Shown here one piece after another: positions 42,013 to 61,715 of a stretch of DNA of 64,000 bases. The stretch covers positions 290,777 to 354,776 of the forward strand of contig JALHMI010000004.1 of the NCBI GenBank assembly GCA_022844125.1, written 5' to 3'. A program made the translations under genes and the position numbers. Source of the DNA: Pirellulales bacterium (lineage in GTDB: Bacteria > Planctomycetota > Planctomycetia > Pirellulales > PALSA-1355). Below the pieces are notes generated by a model. That model was not told the DNA's origin, ran no database searches, and saw only the letters and a program-made list of their open reading frames with translations. Positions within the stretch are counted from its first letter, which is position 1. Every line of letters starts with the position of its first letter.

Positions 42013-43074
42013 TCAGTCTTCCTGCAGTCGACCCGAGAAGGCCGCCAGTTGAGCCGTTGCGCGACCGTAAGCTGGCCCCTGTGACTGGCGCGAGCCGCCC
42101 AGGTACGAAAGGGCCTTCTCGCCCATGTTGGTTCCGAGCTGGTTGCCGAGCAACTGGCGACGTTTCATGATGGCGCATTTGAGCGTCCGATTGCCGAGCA
42201 GGCTCAGGCCGCCCAGGACGTAGCCGCCGGGATAGCAGGGCGCAGTGTGCATGGCCCGGGCGAAATATTGCTTGGCGATGTGCTGTCGATCGAGAACGGC
42301 GTGTTTAGCGCCATGCGCGCAGTAAGTACGAGCGCGTTCGAGCGCGGGCAAGGCCGCAAATTCTGGCGTTCGCATGATGCGCTGTTGCACTTCGAGTTCG
42401 GCGCGCAAGGTTTCGACCAGGCCGGTGTGCACGGTCATCAGTTCGTGATAGCGGTAGCACATCAGCGGCTCGTCGACGTACTGGAACTCCCAATGCCCTG
42501 CGAGCCGTCGCCAGAAGTCATAGTCCTCGGCATGACTCATCGTCTGATCGAAGCGTGTGGAGCCAATCGCCGCCCGCCGCGCCAGGGACGACACCGTAAG
42601 GAAGCAGCGCCGCGAGAGCTCACCCAGAACCATGCCCGAGGGGCGCGGGCCAGGCATCGCGCCGGTGTAGACTTCGACCGCCTGCCCCTTGGCGTCGACG
42701 ATCAGGGCGTCGGTATACACCACGCCGATCTGGGGACTGGCAGCCATCACGGCAGCGCAGCGCTCGAGGTTCGTCGGCAGCAGCAGGTCGTCTGAATCGA
42801 GAAACATGATCGAGTCGCCGCGGGCTTCTTCGAGGCCCACGTTGCGGGCAGCCGATCGACCGCGATTGCGCTGGCGAATGATGCGCACCGGAGCGGCGTA
42901 TTTCGCCAGAATCTCTGGTGTCTCATCGGTCGAGCCGTCGTCGATGACCAGGATTTCGTCCGGCAATCGGGTTTGGTTCAGCGCGCTGTCGATCGCGTCG
43001 CGAATGTACTTCGCGCGGTTGTACGTCGGAATGATGACTGAGATATTCAGATCCGCGGGGGAGTTTACGGACAT
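42013..43074 (-). CDS. Family 2 glycosyltransferase (copy A)
   Basis: A 353-residue GT-A enzyme with SVIIPTYNRAKYIRDAI, the nucleotide site LVIDDGSTDE, the DxD-like FLDSDD and EDYDFWRRLA. It transfers an unidentified sugar to a growing polysaccharide. The gene overlaps the preceding flippase by 10 bp in another frame. Throughout its length it is similar to the C-terminal part of the fused protein at 50013-52433, so the two are paralogs. It lacks membrane helices, so it acts at the cytoplasmic face. Confidence 0.93.
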   Translation of the reverse strand: MSVNSPADLNISVIIPTYNRAKYIRDAIDSALNQTRLPDEILVIDDGSTDETPEILAKYAAPVRIIRQRNRGRSAARNVGLEEARGDSIMFLDSDDLLLPTNLERCAAVMAASPQIGVVYTDALIVDAKGQAVEVYTGAMPGPRPSGMVLGELSRRCFLTVSSLARRAAIGSTRFDQTMSHAEDYDFWRRLAGHWEFQYVDEPLMCYRYHELMTVHTGLVETLRAELEVQQRIMRTPEFAALPALERARTYCAHGAKHAVLDRQHIAKQYFARAMHTAPCYPGGYVLGGLSLLGNRTLKCAIMKRRQLLGNQLGTNMGEKALSYLGGSRQSQGPAYGRATAQLAAFSGRLQED

Positions 43075-44456
43075 GGATGCGCCTCGTTCGAGATGGGAGT
43101 TTGCCTGGGCAGAGTGTTGAGGACGTGTTGCAGGGTGAAGACGCGGACGGTGGCAGCAAACGTTGCCCCGGCCAGTGTGGCCAGTGCCGCGCCCCACGCG
43201 CCCTGAGCGGGCACGAGCAGAAGCGAGAGGAGAATGGTCGTAAACGCGCCGCATAAATCGGCAAGAAAGTTAGCCCGGGGGCGATCGACGGCCCACAGTC
43301 CGATGCCGGACACCATGCCCACTGCGGTGGCGATACTGACAAACGCCAGCGTGGCTAGAACGGGGCCGCTGTGCTCGAAGTCCTCGCCATAGGCGAGCTC
43401 CGCCAGCCAAGGACCGGTGGCCCATACGAATAGTGCGAAAGGCACCAGGGCCAGCGTGAGCAGGAGGACGCTCGGCACGAGTACGCGTCGCAGCGACTGT
43501 GAGCCACCTTCAACAAACGCCTGCGCGGCGCGCGGCGTCAGGAAGCGATCCACGCCGGTGAGCAGTAGTGTGGAAAGGCCGATCAGCGTGGTGCAGGCGC
43601 CGAACAAGCCGGCCGCCGCCGTACCCGCTGCCGCGCCAACAACCCATACCATCACATAAGGCACGAGGTTGTGCACCAGGTAGCTGCGCAGGGCCCAGCG
43701 GCCGAATGCCCAATTGTGTTTCCAATCGGCAAGGTATCGCCTTGGGTCATAAACAGTTCTGGGGGTGCGGGCCAGGAACCAGCCCAGCGAAGCCAGGCCG
43801 CAGGCGGCGCCCATCACCAGAAAGATCGCACCAAGCGCGAGGCGGTCGAAGTAGGCCAGGGCGAGCAGACCACTGAGTTGCACGGCCGCTACGCTTACGT
43901 CGATGGCCAGTGCGGTCGCGAAATCGAGATCGGCAAATGCGAAGCGGCGAATCCACTCGCGCAATAGCATTAGCGGCCCGGCGGCCACGAGCGCCACGAG
44001 CGCGGGTAGGATTGCCGAGCCACCCACTGCCGTCAGCGCGAGGATCGCCAGCAGCAATAGCCCAACGGCTGCGAGCGTGACGACGGCGTGATGCATCCAG
44101 ACGCTGCCTGCATAAGCTGCGCGTGCGGCACCCTGGTAACGCCTCGAGTAGATCGTGTATGGCGCCGCAATTATGTGCTCGTGCACGCCCAGCGAGATCA
44201 GCACGATGGTAAGCGACAGGTAATACAGCCCGACTTCATCCGGCGCGCATGCCCGATTGATGATGATCGCGGTGAAGAAGCTGGTGGCGCTGACGACCCC
44301 CTGGTCGACAAGGGACAAACCTCCGCGCCAGGCGGAGGGGAATCGGTTGACAAAATTAATGGCGCGTCCTCGAAGCCCTGGCGGTGCCGCGATGGGAACT
44401 TCAACCTCGAACGTCGGCGTGGAAGCTTTATGCAATTCGACAAGTTCAGTGCTCAT
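43065..44456 (-). CDS. Wzx-type polysaccharide flippase (copy A)
   Basis: A 463-residue protein with about 12-14 predicted membrane helices of the MATE/Wzx group (GGLSLVDQGVVSATSFFTAI at the start, then EVGLYYLSLTIVL). It moves lipid-linked sugar repeat units across the membrane. The start overlaps the deacetylase stop (ATGA), and the end overlaps the GT2. It is a clear paralog of the N-terminal part of the fused protein at 50013-52433, sharing motifs such as GPLMLLRE.IRR and MGAAC.(I/L)ASLGWF. Confidence 0.9.
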   Translation of the reverse strand: MSTELVELHKASTPTFEVEVPIAAPPGLRGRAINFVNRFPSAWRGGLSLVDQGVVSATSFFTAIIINRACAPDEVGLYYLSLTIVLISLGVHEHIIAAPYTIYSRRYQGAARAAYAGSVWMHHAVVTLAAVGLLLLAILALTAVGGSAILPALVALVAAGPLMLLREWIRRFAFADLDFATALAIDVSVAAVQLSGLLALAYFDRLALGAIFLVMGAACGLASLGWFLARTPRTVYDPRRYLADWKHNWAFGRWALRSYLVHNLVPYVMVWVVGAAAGTAAAGLFGACTTLIGLSTLLLTGVDRFLTPRAAQAFVEGGSQSLRRVLVPSVLLLTLALVPFALFVWATGPWLAELAYGEDFEHSGPVLATLAFVSIATAVGMVSGIGLWAVDRPRANFLADLCGAFTTILLSLLLVPAQGAWGAALATLAGATFAATVRVFTLQHVLNTLPRQTPISNEAHPCP

Positions 44457-48692: not shown

Positions 48693-50006
48693 CTATTGGT
48701 TGCCGAAACGGATGCCGCGGTGAACGGGCAAATTGTTGGACGTGATCGCGCCCTGATAGTGCGGCTGGCGACGTGCCGCTTCGAGTCGCCACTGTCGGGT
48801 GGCCAGGGCCTCGGCGTCGGCCAGCACTTCGTCGCGCGACCGCTCCGCGGCCAGAAGGCCATATGCCGCCCCCAGCAGGGCGAACAGCGGATCGGTGTAG
48901 AACAAGTTGTAGGTGATCGTGTTGTCGGTCAGGCACGTGATCAGCAACGCGCACAGGCCCAGATACGAGCCCGCCAGCGCGGTGCGGGCGAGGCCGCTGG
49001 TTTCGCTGATCCGCTTGCGGAGCGCGAGCAATTGCCAACCCGCGACTGCCAGATAGATGGCCAGACCGGCGAGTCCAACCTCGTAGAACAGCCGCAGATA
49101 GTCATTGTGGATCTGGTTGGTGTCTTCCCAGATCGTGTCGACGAAGTCGTGAATCGAGCCAACGCCTTTGCCCAGGAGCGGCGTTTCGACGGCCTGATCC
49201 CAGGCTTGCGTCCAGGCATCCAGCCGGCCCAGATCGTCGACTTTGCCGCTGGCCACATCACCGATGCTGCCGCTACCACCCGCGAAGAAGTGTTTTTGGA
49301 ACGTGGGGGTGTAGAACAGCCCCAGGCCAATCAGGGCACAGGCAGCTACGGCGGCAACCTTCCACTGCAATGCCTTGACCAGCGGATGCAAGATGAATGC
49401 TGCGAGCAAAGCCAGTGTGGCCATGCGACTGCTGGTCAGAGTCGTGATCGCCACGCATGCACCCCAGCCGGCGAGCGGCAGTACCCAGCGATGTGGGAAT
49501 GCCGCCAGAAACACACAGCCCATCACCGTCGTTGTAAGAGCGGCCGAACGGACATGAGTCTCGAGCCACTGGTGGTCGAATATCTCGTTCACATACAGGA
49601 CCGTATAAAGCGCGACGCCGACCAGCGCGAAGACGAAGGAAGCGAACACGAGCTTGAGCTCGCCGGCGGTGCGAATCGACGTGGCCGCGATGATGCCCAC
49701 CACGATCGGCATCGTGTACTGCATCGCATCTTGCACGTTCTTGCCGTCGAGTTCTGTGGTCCACAGCAGCGACAGCCAGAGATATCCCAACCAGGCGAAC
49801 CACGGGTACCAGGGAGTAAGATCCAACTGGCGGCGGCCGGTGAGCAGGATCATCGAAAGCAGATACAAGCCGGCCAGAAGCTGCGCCACCCAGACGAAGC
49901 CTGTGTAGTTAAATCCACCGATCCGGAAGTCGAACATCGACACGCCCGCTAGGGCCGGGGTCGCCGCCACGTAAAGCACACCGAGTTTGCGAAACGGACT
50001 GCTCAT
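48693..50006 (-). CDS. Wzy-type O-antigen polymerase/ligase-family protein
   Basis: A 437-residue membrane protein with about 11 predicted helices and one large extracytoplasmic loop. The Wzy_C-type motif in that loop's end is IHNDYLRLFYEVGLAGL. It polymerises flipped repeat units. It follows the fused flippase-GT2 gene by 6 bp, matching the classic Wzx-Wzy order. The C-terminus is a soluble tail with many Arg. Confidence 0.88.
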   Translation of the reverse strand: MSSPFRKLGVLYVAATPALAGVSMFDFRIGGFNYTGFVWVAQLLAGLYLLSMILLTGRRQLDLTPWYPWFAWLGYLWLSLLWTTELDGKNVQDAMQYTMPIVVGIIAATSIRTAGELKLVFASFVFALVGVALYTVLYVNEIFDHQWLETHVRSAALTTTVMGCVFLAAFPHRWVLPLAGWGACVAITTLTSSRMATLALLAAFILHPLVKALQWKVAAVAACALIGLGLFYTPTFQKHFFAGGSGSIGDVASGKVDDLGRLDAWTQAWDQAVETPLLGKGVGSIHDFVDTIWEDTNQIHNDYLRLFYEVGLAGLAIYLAVAGWQLLALRKRISETSGLARTALAGSYLGLCALLITCLTDNTITYNLFYTDPLFALLGAAYGLLAAERSRDEVLADAEALATRQWRLEAARRQPHYQGAITSNNLPVHRGIRFGNQ

Positions 50007-53479: not shown

Positions 53480-54607
53480 CTAGCAAGCGCCCCGGCCAAC
53501 GACCACGGCCGGGACAGTTTCCACGAGGAGTTTCAGATCGGCCGCCATTGACCGCGTGCGAATATAGCGGAGATCCATCCGCATCCAGTCGGCGAACGAA
53601 ACCTGCGAGCGCCCGCGGACTTGCCAGATGCAGGTGATTCCAGCGGTAACATCCAGGCGGCGCCGCTGCCAGGCTTCGCAGCCGTTCGATTCGCGCGAGT
53701 CCATCGCCCGCGGACCGACGAGCGTCATGTCGCCCAGCAGCACGTTGAATAGCTGCGGAAGCTCGTCAATGCTGGTCGTACGCAGGAATTTGCCGATTGG
53801 CGTGATCCGCGGATCGTTGGTGATTTTGAAGGCGGGACCGTCCTGCTCGCTGAACTCGCGGAGGGCGTCTTTCTTCGATTCCGCGTCGACGGTCATCGTG
53901 CGGAACTTGTAGATCATGAACTGCCGGCCCCCGAGCGTATCGCGCTTCTGGCGAAAGATTACCGGGCCATGAGATGTGAGCTTGACCGCGGCGGCCACGG
54001 CGAGCAGGAGCGGCGAGAGGACCACGATCGCGTTCAACGCGACCAGGACGTCAATCGCCCGCTTCCACAGCGGTAATGGCTGCAGGAACAGGGGCAACAT
54101 CGGGTGGACCGGTGCTGCGCTGCAGCGGACTGCCAGATCGTGCTCGGCGCCGCGGCGACGATTTCCGCCGGCCGGTTGAAGTTCGACCGCCACTTCAGCC
54201 GGTTCCTCCAGCGGATCGTCCTGCGAGGGATAGGTGTAGACGTCCGGCTTCAAGCCCCGCAATTCCGCGGGCAGCCGTTGAACCAGGTCGGCTGCAAGCG
54301 TCCATGCGCCCTGGGGCGACGTTTCCGGAAGCAGGATGCCGATTCTATGCTCGGCCAGGATGCCGGCGTCGTCGGTCGCGCGGATGCGGGCCGAAAGCAC
54401 GCCGTCCAGCTTCGCAAGCTCGCCGGCCGAGAGCTGCGCAGCACTCGAGAAAGTCAAAAGTGAAAAGATCGAATCGCCCCGGTCGCTGCGCATTCGTTCG
54501 CGTGCAAGAAGCTGTTGCATGCGAGCGGAATTGTGTAGCGCGTGAGTGGGGGACGGTGGATTTGCAGCCTCGCGCCAGGCTTGGACGAATCTCCGAATCG
54601 GTGTCAT
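53480..54607 (-). CDS. Undecaprenyl-phosphate sugar-phosphate transferase with degenerate GGDEF-like N-terminus
   Basis: A 375-residue protein. The C-terminal part (178-375) is a bacterial sugar transferase (PF02397): one hydrophobic helix (LWKRAIDVLVALNAIVVLSP), then IYKFRTM, the catalytic dyad at D281-E282 (SIDELPQLFNVLLGDM) and LVGPRAM. The N-terminal 45-115 (RIRATDDAG..AEHRIGILLPETS) looks like a shrunken GGDEF-type domain rather than the four-helix segment of WbaP/WcaJ. It should start the repeat unit by loading a sugar phosphate on undecaprenyl phosphate. The start at MTPIRRF is preferred over an upstream GTG. Confidence 0.9.
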   Translation of the reverse strand: MTPIRRFVQAWREAANPPSPTHALHNSARMQQLLARERMRSDRGDSIFSLLTFSSAAQLSAGELAKLDGVLSARIRATDDAGILAEHRIGILLPETSPQGAWTLAADLVQRLPAELRGLKPDVYTYPSQDDPLEEPAEVAVELQPAGGNRRRGAEHDLAVRCSAAPVHPMLPLFLQPLPLWKRAIDVLVALNAIVVLSPLLLAVAAAVKLTSHGPVIFRQKRDTLGGRQFMIYKFRTMTVDAESKKDALREFSEQDGPAFKITNDPRITPIGKFLRTTSIDELPQLFNVLLGDMTLVGPRAMDSRESNGCEAWQRRRLDVTAGITCIWQVRGRSQVSFADWMRMDLRYIRTRSMAADLKLLVETVPAVVVGRGAC

Positions 54608-54641
54608 AGCGGCGATTATTGTGTAGGTGGGAGCGTCGGGT

Positions 54642-55334
54642 CTAAACGCGGGCGTCAAGCCAATGCGGGAGGTCACGCGTGTGGTTGTTCAGAATGACTC
54701 CGAGCAAAGCCGCATTCGCGTGATGGAGCCGATGCTTGGCGCGGGTCGCCAAGTGGCTCTGAGTGGACTGACCGTCCATGACCAACAACACTCCGTTCAG
54801 AACCCCGGCCAGGGAGAAACACAGGCCCGAGTCCGTGGGTGGTAGATCGACGACGACGAATGCAAAGTCGCGCTCCAGTTCATAGAGCAATTCAACGATG
54901 CGATTGCCATCGAAACTCGAAAGCGAGGCTGCCGGCTCATGGTTCAAGGCCAGCAACGAAAGATTTGGAATCGTCGTCGTACGAACACATTCGCAAGGCG
55001 TGGCTGTTCCGCTCAAGGCGCGAAGCAAACCGAGGTCGCCGTCCAGGGAAAGTTGTTCGGCGAGCCGGGCCGGCTTGCCGCTGAGATCGACCAGCAGGAC
55101 GGGTGTCGATCCGGTTTGAGCCGCGGCCACGGCCAGGTTCGCCGCCACGGTGCTGACACCGGCGCCGGGATGACAGCTGGTCACACCCACCGACCTGGCA
55201 TCGGTCGGATTTCCATCACGACCATCGGTCGGGCGCAGCCAGTGCGCGAGTGCATAGTACTGCTCAGCGACCGCTCCGCCGTTCCCGCCCCGCCGGGGTG
55301 ACGTCGCTTGCTGGGCCTGCGTTAACGTAAGCAT
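54642..55334 (-). CDS. CpsD/BY-kinase-like P-loop protein lacking the Walker A lysine
   Basis: A 230-residue protein with the layout of the tyrosine autokinase that partners with Wzz/GumC. The Walker A region reads HPGAGVST where family members have a GKS/GKT lysine. A' (LLVDLSGKPA) and Walker B (FVVVDLPP) are recognisable but weak. There is no C-terminal Tyr cluster. It starts at a single ATG, 20 bp downstream of the GumC gene. It is likely a non-catalytic regulator of chain length, or binds nucleotide in another way. Confidence 0.82.
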   Translation of the reverse strand: MLTLTQAQQATSPRRGGNGGAVAEQYYALAHWLRPTDGRDGNPTDARSVGVTSCHPGAGVSTVAANLAVAAAQTGSTPVLLVDLSGKPARLAEQLSLDGDLGLLRALSGTATPCECVRTTTIPNLSLLALNHEPAASLSSFDGNRIVELLYELERDFAFVVVDLPPTDSGLCFSLAGVLNGVLLVMDGQSTQSHLATRAKHRLHHANAALLGVILNNHTRDLPHWLDARV

Positions 55335-57091: not shown

Positions 57092-57949
57092 CTACACGCG
57101 CGGCGCGCTGAACTCGCCGGAGTCGATCCAGCTTGGATGCATGAGGGTGAAAAAATCCACCGCGAGTCGTTCTTCCACGTACGCATAGGGCAGCCAGCCG
57201 TAACCAGCATCACCCCACTCCGAGCCCCACGAGCTGCGAATCAATAGTGCGCCGCGCGAGCCGCGCAACCAGCGATCGTCGTAACCCGCCGCCACCAGCG
57301 CCTGCCCTCCCAGCGGCCTGTCAAACGTCGGGCGATACGGAATCTGCCCGTCAGCCGTGATCGAGTCGGGAATCGACATGCCAAAGCAGGTCGGAAAACC
57401 GGCCGACAACAGCGCCCGCAGTGTGTCCAGCGTCTCTCGACCAATGGTCTTGCGCCCGTCAATTCGGAAATAGCGCAAGCCGTCGTACGGCTGACGAAAG
57501 CTGGACAGGAAAGCGTCCGGCTGTTCGGCCAGTCGCGGTGCTTCGTAAGGCCAGTGCCGCTCGGGGGCGATGCCGCAGCGGATCATGGCTTTGAGCGTGG
57601 AACGCAGGTCGATGCCTACGGCCCGCGCCGATTCGCCGCCAGCCATGCGGACGGCGTTCTGATGGAGCATCAGCCGCGCGGGACGTAGGATGCGACCGTG
57701 TGCGCGTCGTTCAAAGTACTGCACCAGGGAAGCGCACGCATGCGCCGTCGAGGTGGGCAGCGTAAGCTGATCGTCCACCTCCACAAAGTATTCGCGGAGA
57801 TCAACCGCCGGAGGCAATTCGTCGGGCTGTTCCAGGTCGGGGGGAAGCTTGGCAAGCAACTCGGCAATCGGCGCGGATTCTGGCGTGTAGTCCCGAAAGT
57901 CAGGCGATGCTGGCAGCCAGCCGAATGCGCGCGGTAGATAGAGTGCCAT
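57092..57949 (-). CDS. C1 (papain-fold) pseudo-peptidase
   Basis: A 285-residue protein with the fold and order of bacterial C1 peptidases: FGWLPASPDFRDY, PPAVDLRE, then DDQLTLPTSTAHACAS, GGQALVAAGYDD and IRSSWGSEWG. The nucleophile Cys of GSCTAHA is Ser 67, the His of GGHAV is Gln 216, and the Asn of RNSWG is Ser 239. The oxyanion Gln 61 is kept. With all three catalytic residues changed in an otherwise intact gene, it should be a binding protein rather than a protease. No signal peptide is visible. It sits within the polysaccharide locus, between the export and co-polymerase genes. Confidence 0.85.
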   Translation of the reverse strand: MALYLPRAFGWLPASPDFRDYTPESAPIAELLAKLPPDLEQPDELPPAVDLREYFVEVDDQLTLPTSTAHACASLVQYFERRAHGRILRPARLMLHQNAVRMAGGESARAVGIDLRSTLKAMIRCGIAPERHWPYEAPRLAEQPDAFLSSFRQPYDGLRYFRIDGRKTIGRETLDTLRALLSAGFPTCFGMSIPDSITADGQIPYRPTFDRPLGGQALVAAGYDDRWLRGSRGALLIRSSWGSEWGDAGYGWLPYAYVEERLAVDFFTLMHPSWIDSGEFSAPRV

Positions 57950-58191: not shown

Positions 58192-58989
58192 TCAATCGAC
58201 AGTGACGACATCGCGTGCGATCGCACGTTCTCGTGGCTCGCGCGCCGTCGAGCTAAACTCCCAGCGAATGCCTTCGCCGCTGCCGTCCCCCATGAAACGC
58301 ACCAGGGCATGTTTTTGTTTACGATTCAGTGCCTTAATGGTGTCGTGCAGGCGGCGGCGAGGATCGAGTTGCGCCAAGGGGGGCAAGGGATCGTCGATCC
58401 TGGGTGGCCATCCCTCTTCCTCAAAGGCCATCAACACCGTCTCCTGATTGGGTGATGGCAGCTTGAATTCCTTGACCACTTCAGCGGCGACGCGCAGTTG
58501 GCGCCGCTGGTCGTCCCACTTCGGTTGCAGGACCACGTTCGCAGCATTCACGACCCGGCAACTGGCCGTAGTACGCTCTCGCGCCGCCGATGGTGCTCCG
58601 GCACAGAATTCTCGCACTGCCGTCACCCCGCTTTCCGTCAGCACCACGCAGGTCGGTTCATGCACGCTCACCAGGTTTGTGCGGCGGAACCGGCGCGCAT
58701 GGTCGGTCGGGCCTGTGATCTCCACGGCATGTTCCACCAGTCCGATTGCAGACAACCAGCGCAGATCGCTGTTGGTCAGACTGGCCCTGCGCAGCACTTC
58801 TAACTCGACGGCCAACTCCCAGGCATCCTGATCGAGATCGATTGCGTATTCGTGTGCTTCCAGCAGCAGGCTCAGGGCGGCGTGCAGATGTGGACGAATA
58901 TTCAATCGCCGAGGCGCGCAAGTCGCGCTCGTGAGCGAGTTAAGTTCGCGGTCGAGCAATTCGCCATTCGCCATTCGAGGCAGACTCAT
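58192..58989 (-). CDS. Winged-helix-like hypothetical protein of the planctomycete type
   Basis: A 265-residue protein. The N-terminal half is helical. The C-terminal half carries WDDQRRQLRVAAEVVKEFKLP, EEEGWPPRIDDPLPP, LHDTIKALNRKQK and RFMGDGSGEGIRWEF, a module that recurs in planctomycete proteins and looks like a winged helix. A regulatory, possibly DNA-binding, role in the polysaccharide locus fits its place, but no target can be named. An ATG five codons in (58974) is an alternative start. Confidence 0.75.
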   Translation of the reverse strand: MSLPRMANGELLDRELNSLTSATCAPRRLNIRPHLHAALSLLLEAHEYAIDLDQDAWELAVELEVLRRASLTNSDLRWLSAIGLVEHAVEITGPTDHARRFRRTNLVSVHEPTCVVLTESGVTAVREFCAGAPSAARERTTASCRVVNAANVVLQPKWDDQRRQLRVAAEVVKEFKLPSPNQETVLMAFEEEGWPPRIDDPLPPLAQLDPRRRLHDTIKALNRKQKHALVRFMGDGSGEGIRWEFSSTAREPRERAIARDVVTVD

Positions 58990-59176: not shown

Positions 59177-60418
59177 CTACGGGATCGGCAAGAAGGGCAA
59201 AAAGCCCTTGAACGGCGTGTAGGCCACGCCGAATTGGACGGGGATCACCCCGTAAATTCCGCGGCTGAATACCAGCTCAATGAAGTTATCCGCCCGCAGA
59301 ATCTTCGACTTGGGGACCAGCACCAGATCGTTATCGGCGAGCCAGATCTCCTCCGCGGGACAGGGGGATTTGCCAAGCAGCGCATCCTGCAGATCGAGCT
59401 CCGTGGCCAAAAGCCGCCAATCATCGGCCCGGCGGAAGACCACCACGTGCGTGATCTGAGCACCGACCGTCCAACTGCCGGCCATTGCGATGGCCTGCAT
59501 GACGGTCGTCGGGGCTTCCATGTCGTACCGTCCCGGCCGCTCGACTTCTCCCAGCACGTAACACACGTGTGGCGCTTTCTTGCTCAACACGGGCATGACT
59601 TCCATGCCTGCAATTTTTTCAGCAAAGCGCTCATCCAGTTCGAGCTTGAATTCGTCCAGCGTCAGACCCTGGGCCGGTACCGTTCCGACGGCCGGAAGTT
59701 GGATCGTGCCCTCGGGCGTCACGCGGCCGAAGTACACCTGGCCGCCAAAACCGCTTTGTCCGGCCACTGCGTAGCGAAGCTCTTCGAGCGCCGAGTTCAC
59801 CTTGATGGGGACGATCGCGATCGAGGGTTTCTCGTAGAACTCACGATACTTTTCTTCGACGAGGTTTCGAAGTTGACCGGCGGTGCCGCCCGCGGCTTGC
59901 ACCGTGCCGATCTGCGGAAGCGAGATCGTGCCGTCCGGCAGCACGGTGAGGGTGCGAGTGAGCGTGCTGTCGGTGACCATTTCGACCGCGATCTGATCGC
60001 CGACGTTGAGCTTGTATCCCTCGGGTAGTCGATTCCGATCCACCCGAAACACGAACTCCAGTGAATCGTCGACGCGTAAGCGATAAGTGGGCACATGCGG
60101 CAGTCGGGCGCGACCGACGTACTCACCCTGGGCCCATTCTTGAAAGGCAACTTCCGAACTGAGTGCGTTCCAGTTCGTTTCGCAGCCGCGCGGACAAGTG
60201 CGCGTACAGTCGATCGCCGGCGTCGGATAGGGCGCGGCGGGCGACAACGGCGGTCCGGCATGAACGACCATTTCCGGGCCGATCAGAAACTGATGACTCG
60301 AGGCCGTCGTGGCAGGCAGCGGTTCGCCGCCGCTGGCGGGTCGCCCCCCGGCAGCGCACGCGGCCAGCGCGGCCGCGAGCATGCTCAACATTCTTCCGCG
60401 AGTGCGAGAAATTCCCAT
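59177..60418 (-). CDS. Wza-like polysaccharide export protein (copy 2)
   Basis: A 413-residue secreted protein. A signal peptide (about 1-30) leads to a mature protein with a short Cys motif (DCTRTCPRGCETNW), the export domain (YRLRVDDSLEFVFRV, then VLPDGTISLPQIGTV) and SLBB-like repeats (YVLGEVERPGRYDMEAPTTV). No lipobox is visible. It forms the outer-envelope exit route for the polysaccharide. It is 37 bp downstream of, and very similar to, the copy at 60456-61715, so a tandem duplication is clear. Confidence 0.9.
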   Translation of the reverse strand: MGISRTRGRMLSMLAAALAACAAGGRPASGGEPLPATTASSHQFLIGPEMVVHAGPPLSPAAPYPTPAIDCTRTCPRGCETNWNALSSEVAFQEWAQGEYVGRARLPHVPTYRLRVDDSLEFVFRVDRNRLPEGYKLNVGDQIAVEMVTDSTLTRTLTVLPDGTISLPQIGTVQAAGGTAGQLRNLVEEKYREFYEKPSIAIVPIKVNSALEELRYAVAGQSGFGGQVYFGRVTPEGTIQLPAVGTVPAQGLTLDEFKLELDERFAEKIAGMEVMPVLSKKAPHVCYVLGEVERPGRYDMEAPTTVMQAIAMAGSWTVGAQITHVVVFRRADDWRLLATELDLQDALLGKSPCPAEEIWLADNDLVLVPKSKILRADNFIELVFSRGIYGVIPVQFGVAYTPFKGFLPFLPIP

Positions 60419-60455: not shown

Positions 60456-61715
60456 TTAAGGAATGGGCGTTAGATCTTTAAAGACCGTGTAGTTCACGCC
60501 GCCGTTAAACGGAATCACGCCGTACAACCCGCGGGTAAACACCAGTTCGATGAAGTTATTCGTGCGGAGGATCTTTGACTTGGGAACGATGATCAGGTCG
60601 GAATCGCCCACCCAGATCTCCGCGACGGGGCAGGGCGACTTTCCGAGCAGGGCGTGATTCAGATCGAGGGTGGTCGCGATCAAGCGCCAGTCGTCCGCCC
60701 GGCGGAAGACCACCACGTTTGCGATCTTGGCGCCCACGGTCCAGCTGCCTGCCATCGTGATGGCCTGCATCACCGTGGTCGGCGCTTCGAGCGTGAACCG
60801 ACCTGGCGAGCGAACTTCGCCCAGCACGTACACGTAGCGCGGAGCCCGCTGCCGCAGGACCGGCATCACTTCGATGCCTTGAATCTCTTCCTCGTACCGC
60901 TCAGCCAGTTCAACCTTGAACTCGTCGAGCGTTAAACCCTGGGCCGGCACCGATCCAACGGCTGGAAGCTGGATTGTACCTTCGGGCGTAACTTTACCCT
61001 GCAGCAATTGGCCGCCGAAGCCGCTGCGGCCCGAGACCGTAAACCGCAAGTCTTCCAACTGGGTGTCGACCTTGATCGGTGTCACGGTCATGGCCGGCGT
61101 GTTGAAGAACTTCTTGAAGTCCTCATCGAGCTGGCCGCGCAATTGTCCGACGTCCATCCCCGCGGCGGCGACCGAGCCGATCAGTGGCAGCGTGATCGTG
61201 CCGTCCGGCAGCACGGTGACGGTGCGAGTGAGTTCCGGTTCTGCAGCCGACTCGATCTGAACCTCATCGCCCACATTGAGCTTGTAGGGCCCCGAGATCT
61301 GGTCGCGGGTCACGCGGAATACGAAATCCAGCTCATCGTCGACGCGGAGCCGATACGTGGGCACGTGTGGCAATCTTGCGCGGCCGACGTATTCGCCCTG
61401 GGCCCATTCCTGGAAGCCCCACACCGGGCCCAGCGCGTTCCACGTCGCTTCGTACCCCGGCGGACAGTGATTCACACAGTCAACGGCCGGAATCGGATGC
61501 GGATCGGCCGGGGTCAGCACCGGGCCCCTGGGCATCGACATCGAGTACGCGTCGCCCGAGACCATGTTCCCCGTGGGAGGCAAGCTCTCGATCGCGACGG
61601 GCATCGGCTCGGCGGCGGGCGCCAATGAGTTCATGCACAAGGCCGCGAGCGCAACGGCGGCAGATGCCGCACGACGCCGCGTCGCGGATCGTAGTAGGCG
61701 AGAGGGGCTGACCAT
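60456..61715 (-). CDS. Wza-like polysaccharide export protein (copy 1)
   Basis: A 419-residue protein with a signal peptide (about 1-35). It contains a Cys motif (DCVNHCPPGYEATW), the export domain (YRLRVDDELDFVFRV, VLPDGTITLPLIGSV), and SLBB-type repeats (YVLGEVRSPGRFTLEAPTTV). It shares nearly every motif with the next gene downstream. The two may form hetero-oligomeric pores or serve different saccharides. It is 12 bp downstream of the Pro/Ala-rich TPR gene. Confidence 0.9.
   Translation of the reverse strand: MVSPSRLLRSATRRRAASAAVALAALCMNSLAPAAEPMPVAIESLPPTGNMVSGDAYSMSMPRGPVLTPADPHPIPAVDCVNHCPPGYEATWNALGPVWGFQEWAQGEYVGRARLPHVPTYRLRVDDELDFVFRVTRDQISGPYKLNVGDEVQIESAAEPELTRTVTVLPDGTITLPLIGSVAAAGMDVGQLRGQLDEDFKKFFNTPAMTVTPIKVDTQLEDLRFTVSGRSGFGGQLLQGKVTPEGTIQLPAVGSVPAQGLTLDEFKVELAERYEEEIQGIEVMPVLRQRAPRYVYVLGEVRSPGRFTLEAPTTVMQAITMAGSWTVGAKIANVVVFRRADDWRLIATTLDLNHALLGKSPCPVAEIWVGDSDLIIVPKSKILRTNNFIELVFTRGLYGVIPFNGGVNYTVFKDLTPIP

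Follow-up and report, generated by a model that had tools for sequence, protein, structure and literature searches.

A conserved planctomycete clade of catalytically altered papain-fold proteins, its partner gene HYP265 and a possible role in operon control

A papain-fold protein encoded in a polysaccharide locus of a Pirellulales bacterium carries Ser, Gln and Ser at the sites of the catalytic Cys, His and Asn, and it belongs to a new, lineage-specific pseudoenzyme clade of xylellain-type C1A proteins that comes with a new partner family, here called HYP265. In this study, we analysed a window of 64,000 nucleotides (the whole stretch of DNA, in whose numbering coordinates are given) together with relatives of the protein, here called pseudo-C1, and found that the altered gene is conserved in planctomycetes, that it is linked to HYP265 and that the operon behind the pair is exchanged from locus to locus. 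We propose, with a probability of roughly 0.4, that the cytoplasmic pseudoprotease and HYP265 form a two-gene accessory module, probably a regulatory one, in which the cleft would bind a ligand and set the downstream operon. The features of the window are as follows.

57092..57949, minus strand: pseudo-C1 protein (papain fold, xylellain type), 285 aa, with Ser67/Gln216/Ser239 for Cys/His/Asn and Gln61 kept
57749..57751, minus strand: codon TCG of Ser67, the catalytic Cys position by alignment
57302..57304, minus strand: codon CAG of Gln216, the catalytic His position by alignment
57233..57235, minus strand: codon AGC of Ser239, the catalytic Asn position by alignment
58192..58989, minus strand: HYP265, the partner gene, of no known family, 265 aa, single copy in this genome, directly upstream of pseudo-C1
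55355..56956, minus strand: Wzz-like chain-length protein, directly downstream of pseudo-C1 after a gap of 135 bp
54642..55334, minus strand: Wzc/EpsG-like ATPase (autokinase family)
53480..54676, minus strand: polyprenyl-phosphate sugar transferase (Bac_transf)
59177..60418, minus strand: Wza-like Poly_export/SLBB protein, copy 1
60456..61715, minus strand: Wza-like Poly_export/SLBB protein, copy 2
48693..50006, minus strand: Wzy_C polymerase/ligase candidate of the same locus
43065..44456, minus strand: MatE-like flippase candidate (Wzx-like), below the Pfam cut-off

The open reading frame of pseudo-C1 is intact and begins with ATG. Its sole strong match in a single-sequence phmmer search of the PDB was xylellain (3OIS; 2.5e-26), a C1A cysteine protease of Xylella fastidiosa, with residues 10-269 aligned to residues 34-286 of 3OIS; xylellain is thus the nearest solved homolog, over the full length. 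A 41-row family profile returned the same structure at E = 1.1e-47, the single entry below 1e-20, and the Pfam Peptidase_C1 model gave pseudo-C1 14 bits, below its cut-off of 20.7. The AlphaFold2 model (41 sequences) reached a pLDDT of 90.3 and a pTM of 0.89, and a Foldseek search with it placed xylellain on top (1.8e-16), followed by other C1 peptidases. Pseudo-C1 combines the two-domain papain fold with detectable homology to C1A proteins and matches xylellain in fold and in the order of its domains along the entire length, which bears out the proposal of an earlier sequence-only reading that the fold is maintained despite the changes. The second-best protein in the fold search (1.7e-11) was the C1 peptidase Lpg2622 of Legionella pneumophila (PDB 6A0N/6A0Q), which has a papain fold at just 17-18% identity to pseudo-C1; in 6A0Q it binds the active-site inhibitor E-64, so its Cys, at the site where pseudo-C1 has Ser, is reactive.

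Ser67, Gln216 and Ser239 fall at the Cys, His and Asn sites both in the alignment to 3OIS and in the family alignment, and the model puts them where papain has its catalytic residues: residue 67 starts the long central helix 67-84, residue 216 lies within strand 212-224 and residue 239 comes right after strand 234-238. The replacement described in the sequence-only reading is thereby confirmed. Xylellain has Cys-His-Asn at these sites, whereas the oxyanion-hole Gln is present in both proteins. Judged by its sequence, with an altered triad in a C1 fold and the oxyanion Gln as what remains of an active C1A cysteine peptidase, pseudo-C1 would be an inactivated C1 homolog. A working pair of Cys72 and another His, which had been named as a way in which activity might survive, was rejected: Cys72 is deep inside the helix and poorly conserved (position 72 is Cys in 14 and Val in 7 of the 25 core relatives), and no conserved His near the second catalytic site was found among the His residues of the window protein. 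A simple hydropathy scan detected no signal peptide or membrane segment in either pseudo-C1 or HYP265, so both are probably cytoplasmic. The source genome encodes a second, distant C1A protein with an intact triad (L006, G000:C14).

Scanning GTDB contigs yielded 60 relatives of pseudo-C1. In a comparison set of 44 non-planctomycete homologs (from loci L008-L056), chosen for the presence of Cys and His, the catalytic Asn is also present in all 44. The full list of relatives contains no real triad replacement outside the planctomycetes; the non-planctomycete entries L023, L051 and L052, which are fragments or have broken frames, lack one or more catalytic sites. Searches at the level of the order, class and phylum gave 35 altered planctomycete loci. 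In the core clade, which comprises 25 of them, Ser occupies position 67 in 24 members and Gln occupies position 216 in 23; 24 retain the oxyanion Gln61, and position 239 is split between Asn (14) and Ser (11). Ser67 and Gln216 rank 29th and 41st in conservation among the 285 sites. Neighbours 65, 66, 68, 70 and 72 of Ser67 drift in the core clade, and the Gly65, Ser66 and Thr68 of active homologs are lost in the altered clade. Since the surroundings of Ser67 drift, Ser67 and Gln216 do not look like mere leftovers. The triple change, which the sequence-only reading had proposed to look for in other planctomycete polysaccharide loci, does recur there, with conservation of Ser and Gln at the first two sites but not of the third. 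Equivalent polysaccharide loci yielded no active homologs; had there been any, they would have spoken against that reading.

In an IQ-TREE tree that excluded the three triad columns and the two longest branches, 33 altered planctomycete proteins form one side of a branch (UFBoot 100, SH-aLRT 99; 200 of 200 bootstrap trees), and a quick tree of 70 rows agrees with a single clade. Because these homologs group together at 100/99, triad activity appears to have been lost once in the planctomycetes. The sister row to the altered clade, L127, keeps Cys-His-Asn and adjoins a HYP265 remnant. Its gene is unhealthy, with the N-terminus and the remainder in different frames and a shortened HYP265, and it may be decaying or misassembled. 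L104 (G072) likewise encodes a Cys-His-Asn protein next to HYP265; there, the C1 gene is followed by genes for a phosphotransferase-like and a HopA1-family protein. Since both L127 and L104 adjoin HYP265, they suggest, without proving it, that the pairing of C1 and HYP265 predates the catalytic loss. In the seven pairs with measurable dS, dN/dS (Nei-Gojobori) was 0.09-0.22, rough values in that most dS exceed 1; the pairs L167-L126 (saturated dS) and L163-L164 were left out. Such values argue that the altered C1 gene is under purifying selection and is not a decaying gene. Variants occur within this picture: L123 (G418) lies inside the pseudo clade with a silicatein-like Ser-His-Asn, its His kept or regained, and the C1 protein of L164 (G772) combines Ser at the Cys site with a Cys at the following position (HASCAHAC). 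Family f4 (L100, L129-L131, L133 and L134), whose former active site is degenerate at most positions, is not beside HYP265; in L100 and L133, the two members checked, the C1 gene is followed by one for a leucine-rich-repeat protein.

Of the 35 altered loci, 24 have HYP265 within the DNA retrieved; at 21 of them it lies immediately upstream in the same orientation, and it is divergent at L097 and L135 and convergent at L123. Among the 11 loci where it is missing, at least three (L119, L132 and L169) are clipped by contig ends. Across 197 genomes of the order, treated as independent although related, it occurs somewhere in the genome of 23 of the 24 altered-C1 carriers, which span ten families, versus 26 of the 173 others (odds ratio 130, p = 2e-15). 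Roughly one in four sampled genomes of the order carries HYP265. Many genomes have it but no C1 gene; some such copies precede Wzz, as at L210, and others lie near polysaccharide genes at L213 and near glycosyltransferases at L182-L190. Given these C1-less copies, the dependence looks one-sided, the dead protease accompanying HYP265 but HYP265 not requiring the dead protease. The family, represented by 38 members, had no match in Pfam, NCBIfam, PHROGs or PDB profiles, and an AlphaFold2 model from only two sequences reached a pLDDT of 36.5. Its C-terminal half is basic (pI 9.3). That this half is a winged helix of the OmpR/PhoB type, as it seemed by eye, was rejected by a profile test no better than shuffles: hhalign against Trans_reg_C gave E 0.38, and 24 of 60 column shuffles equalled or beat the score.

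The genes behind the pair differ between loci. The window has a Wzx/Wzy-type locus, as the sequence-only reading had stated, with Wzz, the Wzc-like ATPase, the sugar transferase, Wzy_C and the MatE flippase candidate. A Wzz gene follows the C1 gene in 12 loci, including that of the window. Wzz copies with 50% or more identity to that of the window (50-68%) occur at nine places in the order, all nine beside pseudo-C1; the remaining Wzz proteins of the order are at most 44% identical, and just one of them (G451) is beside pseudo-C1. As all nine close Wzz places adjoin pseudo-C1, the gene is a standing member of one exopolysaccharide locus sub-type. The Wza-like Poly_export/SLBB genes stand in tandem in the window, and the relative L096 likewise has two. 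Elsewhere, the pair precedes an M36/M28 peptidase (L126) or RTX and CHRD proteins (L125); a dockerin protein is next at L097 and a trypsin-domain protein at L165, and trypsin/nuclease and subtilase genes are next to the C1 gene at L132. Contractile (phage-)tail sheath, tube and baseplate proteins are next at L167, with the sheath and tube genes twice in a row, and a sheath gene adjoins at L137, where HYP265 and pseudo-C1 are both present. L166, L168 and L171 have no telling neighbour.

We envisage that pseudo-C1, as a xylellain-type C1A fold that has lost the cutting residues and retains the oxyanion Gln and much of the cleft, would perform no proteolysis. The vestigial cleft would most likely hold a peptide segment or a small ligand without cleaving it. 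Pseudo-C1 would then bind or release HYP265 through physical contact and so set the activity of the operon behind the pair, which at the window would be the exopolysaccharide operon beginning with wzz. HYP265 might act by binding nucleic acid; no shared operator-like palindrome was seen around the genes. A cytoplasmic pseudoprotease, a fixed partner and interchangeable operons would fit a control module better than a part of a machine, and we infer a regulatory role rather than one in transport or assembly. Family f4, whose more degenerate C1 gene lies apart from HYP265, counts against the module, as do the many genomes that have HYP265 but no C1 gene. The fuller version, a planctomycete-specific control cassette of the new family HYP265 and a xylellain-derived pseudoprotease that stands before surface and secretion operons of unrelated kinds and controls their output via a ligand in the former cleft, is offered tentatively and with less assurance.

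Several other roles can be weighed against this control module. The dead protease could be a secretion or assembly adaptor, binding an exported cargo or a component of a machine and passing it on, much as the C39-like domain of HlyB may do for its substrate. The products of many operons behind the pair are exported or belong to the surface (exopolysaccharide, RTX proteins, peptidases, contractile-tail parts), and HlyB, a type 1 exporter, has a degenerate papain-like C39-like domain that has lost its catalytic Cys and has been kept (PMC8277102). The HlyB domain, however, belongs to C39, is fused to an ABC exporter and has Tyr for Cys, whereas pseudo-C1 is a C1A protein, soluble, free-standing and unfused to any exporter. 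The machines concerned (Wzx/Wzy, contractile tail, general secretion) are unrelated and hence offer no common client part, and the constant partner is HYP265; we consider an adaptor unlikely. Somewhat less likely again is the idea of the sequence-only reading, that pseudo-C1 is a structural or glycan-binding factor of the Wzx/Wzy system, possibly a nucleotide-sugar sensor. The wzz gene directly behind the C1 gene in the 12 loci and the Wzz sub-type confined to pseudo-C1 neighbourhoods favour it, and the xylellain structure reportedly holds a ribonucleotide outside the active site. Over the same 197 genomes, again treated as independent although related, Wzz is present in 13 of 24 altered-C1 carriers versus 63 of 173 others, which is not significant (p = 0.12), and several loci have no polysaccharide genes. 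Consistent co-presence of Wzx, Wzy and Wzz was thus not seen, nor an envelope location, pseudo-C1 having no signal peptide. A general Wzx/Wzy component is ruled out by the Wzz co-occurrence and these loci, and a structural or glycan-binding part in the export machinery finds no support in a protein that is tied to HYP265 and whose pair also precedes non-polysaccharide operons.

That pseudo-C1 is an enzyme with a new chemistry, using Ser67 as its nucleophile or a new site made of Gln61, Ser67 and Gln216, is improbable. Ser67 and Gln216 are conserved rather than random, and L123 has Ser-His-Asn as in silicateins. Silicateins and SERA-type C1A variants have Ser for Cys at the nucleophile site of a papain fold. 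They keep the His, however, whereas 23 of the 25 core members have Gln there; most members thus have no general base, Gln being no substitute for His in that role, and the residue at the third site is variable. A functionless relic hitch-hiking in the locus might be suspected from the f4 group, which lacks even the Ser/Gln pattern, and from the frameshift in L127, but the dN/dS values, full-length open reading frames in about 30 genomes and fixed replacement residues rule this reading out for practical purposes.

We know of no HYP265 partner for xylellain. According to a 2025 paper, the xylellain-like proteins found in plant-associated bacteria are hydrolytic enzymes; it notes that the substrate of xylellain is unknown (PMC12090721). 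A 2023 papain-family survey describes xylellain-type short bacterial C1A peptidases and names active-site loss among the forces acting on the family (PMC10380794). A literature search limited mostly to journals open without subscription found nothing on the planctomycete pseudo-C1 clade or on HYP265. Few bacterial protease families offer a clean example of a pseudoenzyme clade that is itself conserved, in which activity was lost a single time, the replaced active site is conserved and the genetic partner is fixed. Should the pair prove to be a control module, it would provide a handle on the switching of polysaccharide and secretion operons in planctomycetes, whose envelope biology is poorly understood, and a function for a widespread family unrecognised by the protein libraries used. 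The C-terminal part of HYP265 (about residues 155-248) is also shared by proteins with other N-termini; at L203 and L205, proteins with this domain adjoin, by eye, tyrosine-recombinase-like genes, and the domain may also serve mobile elements.
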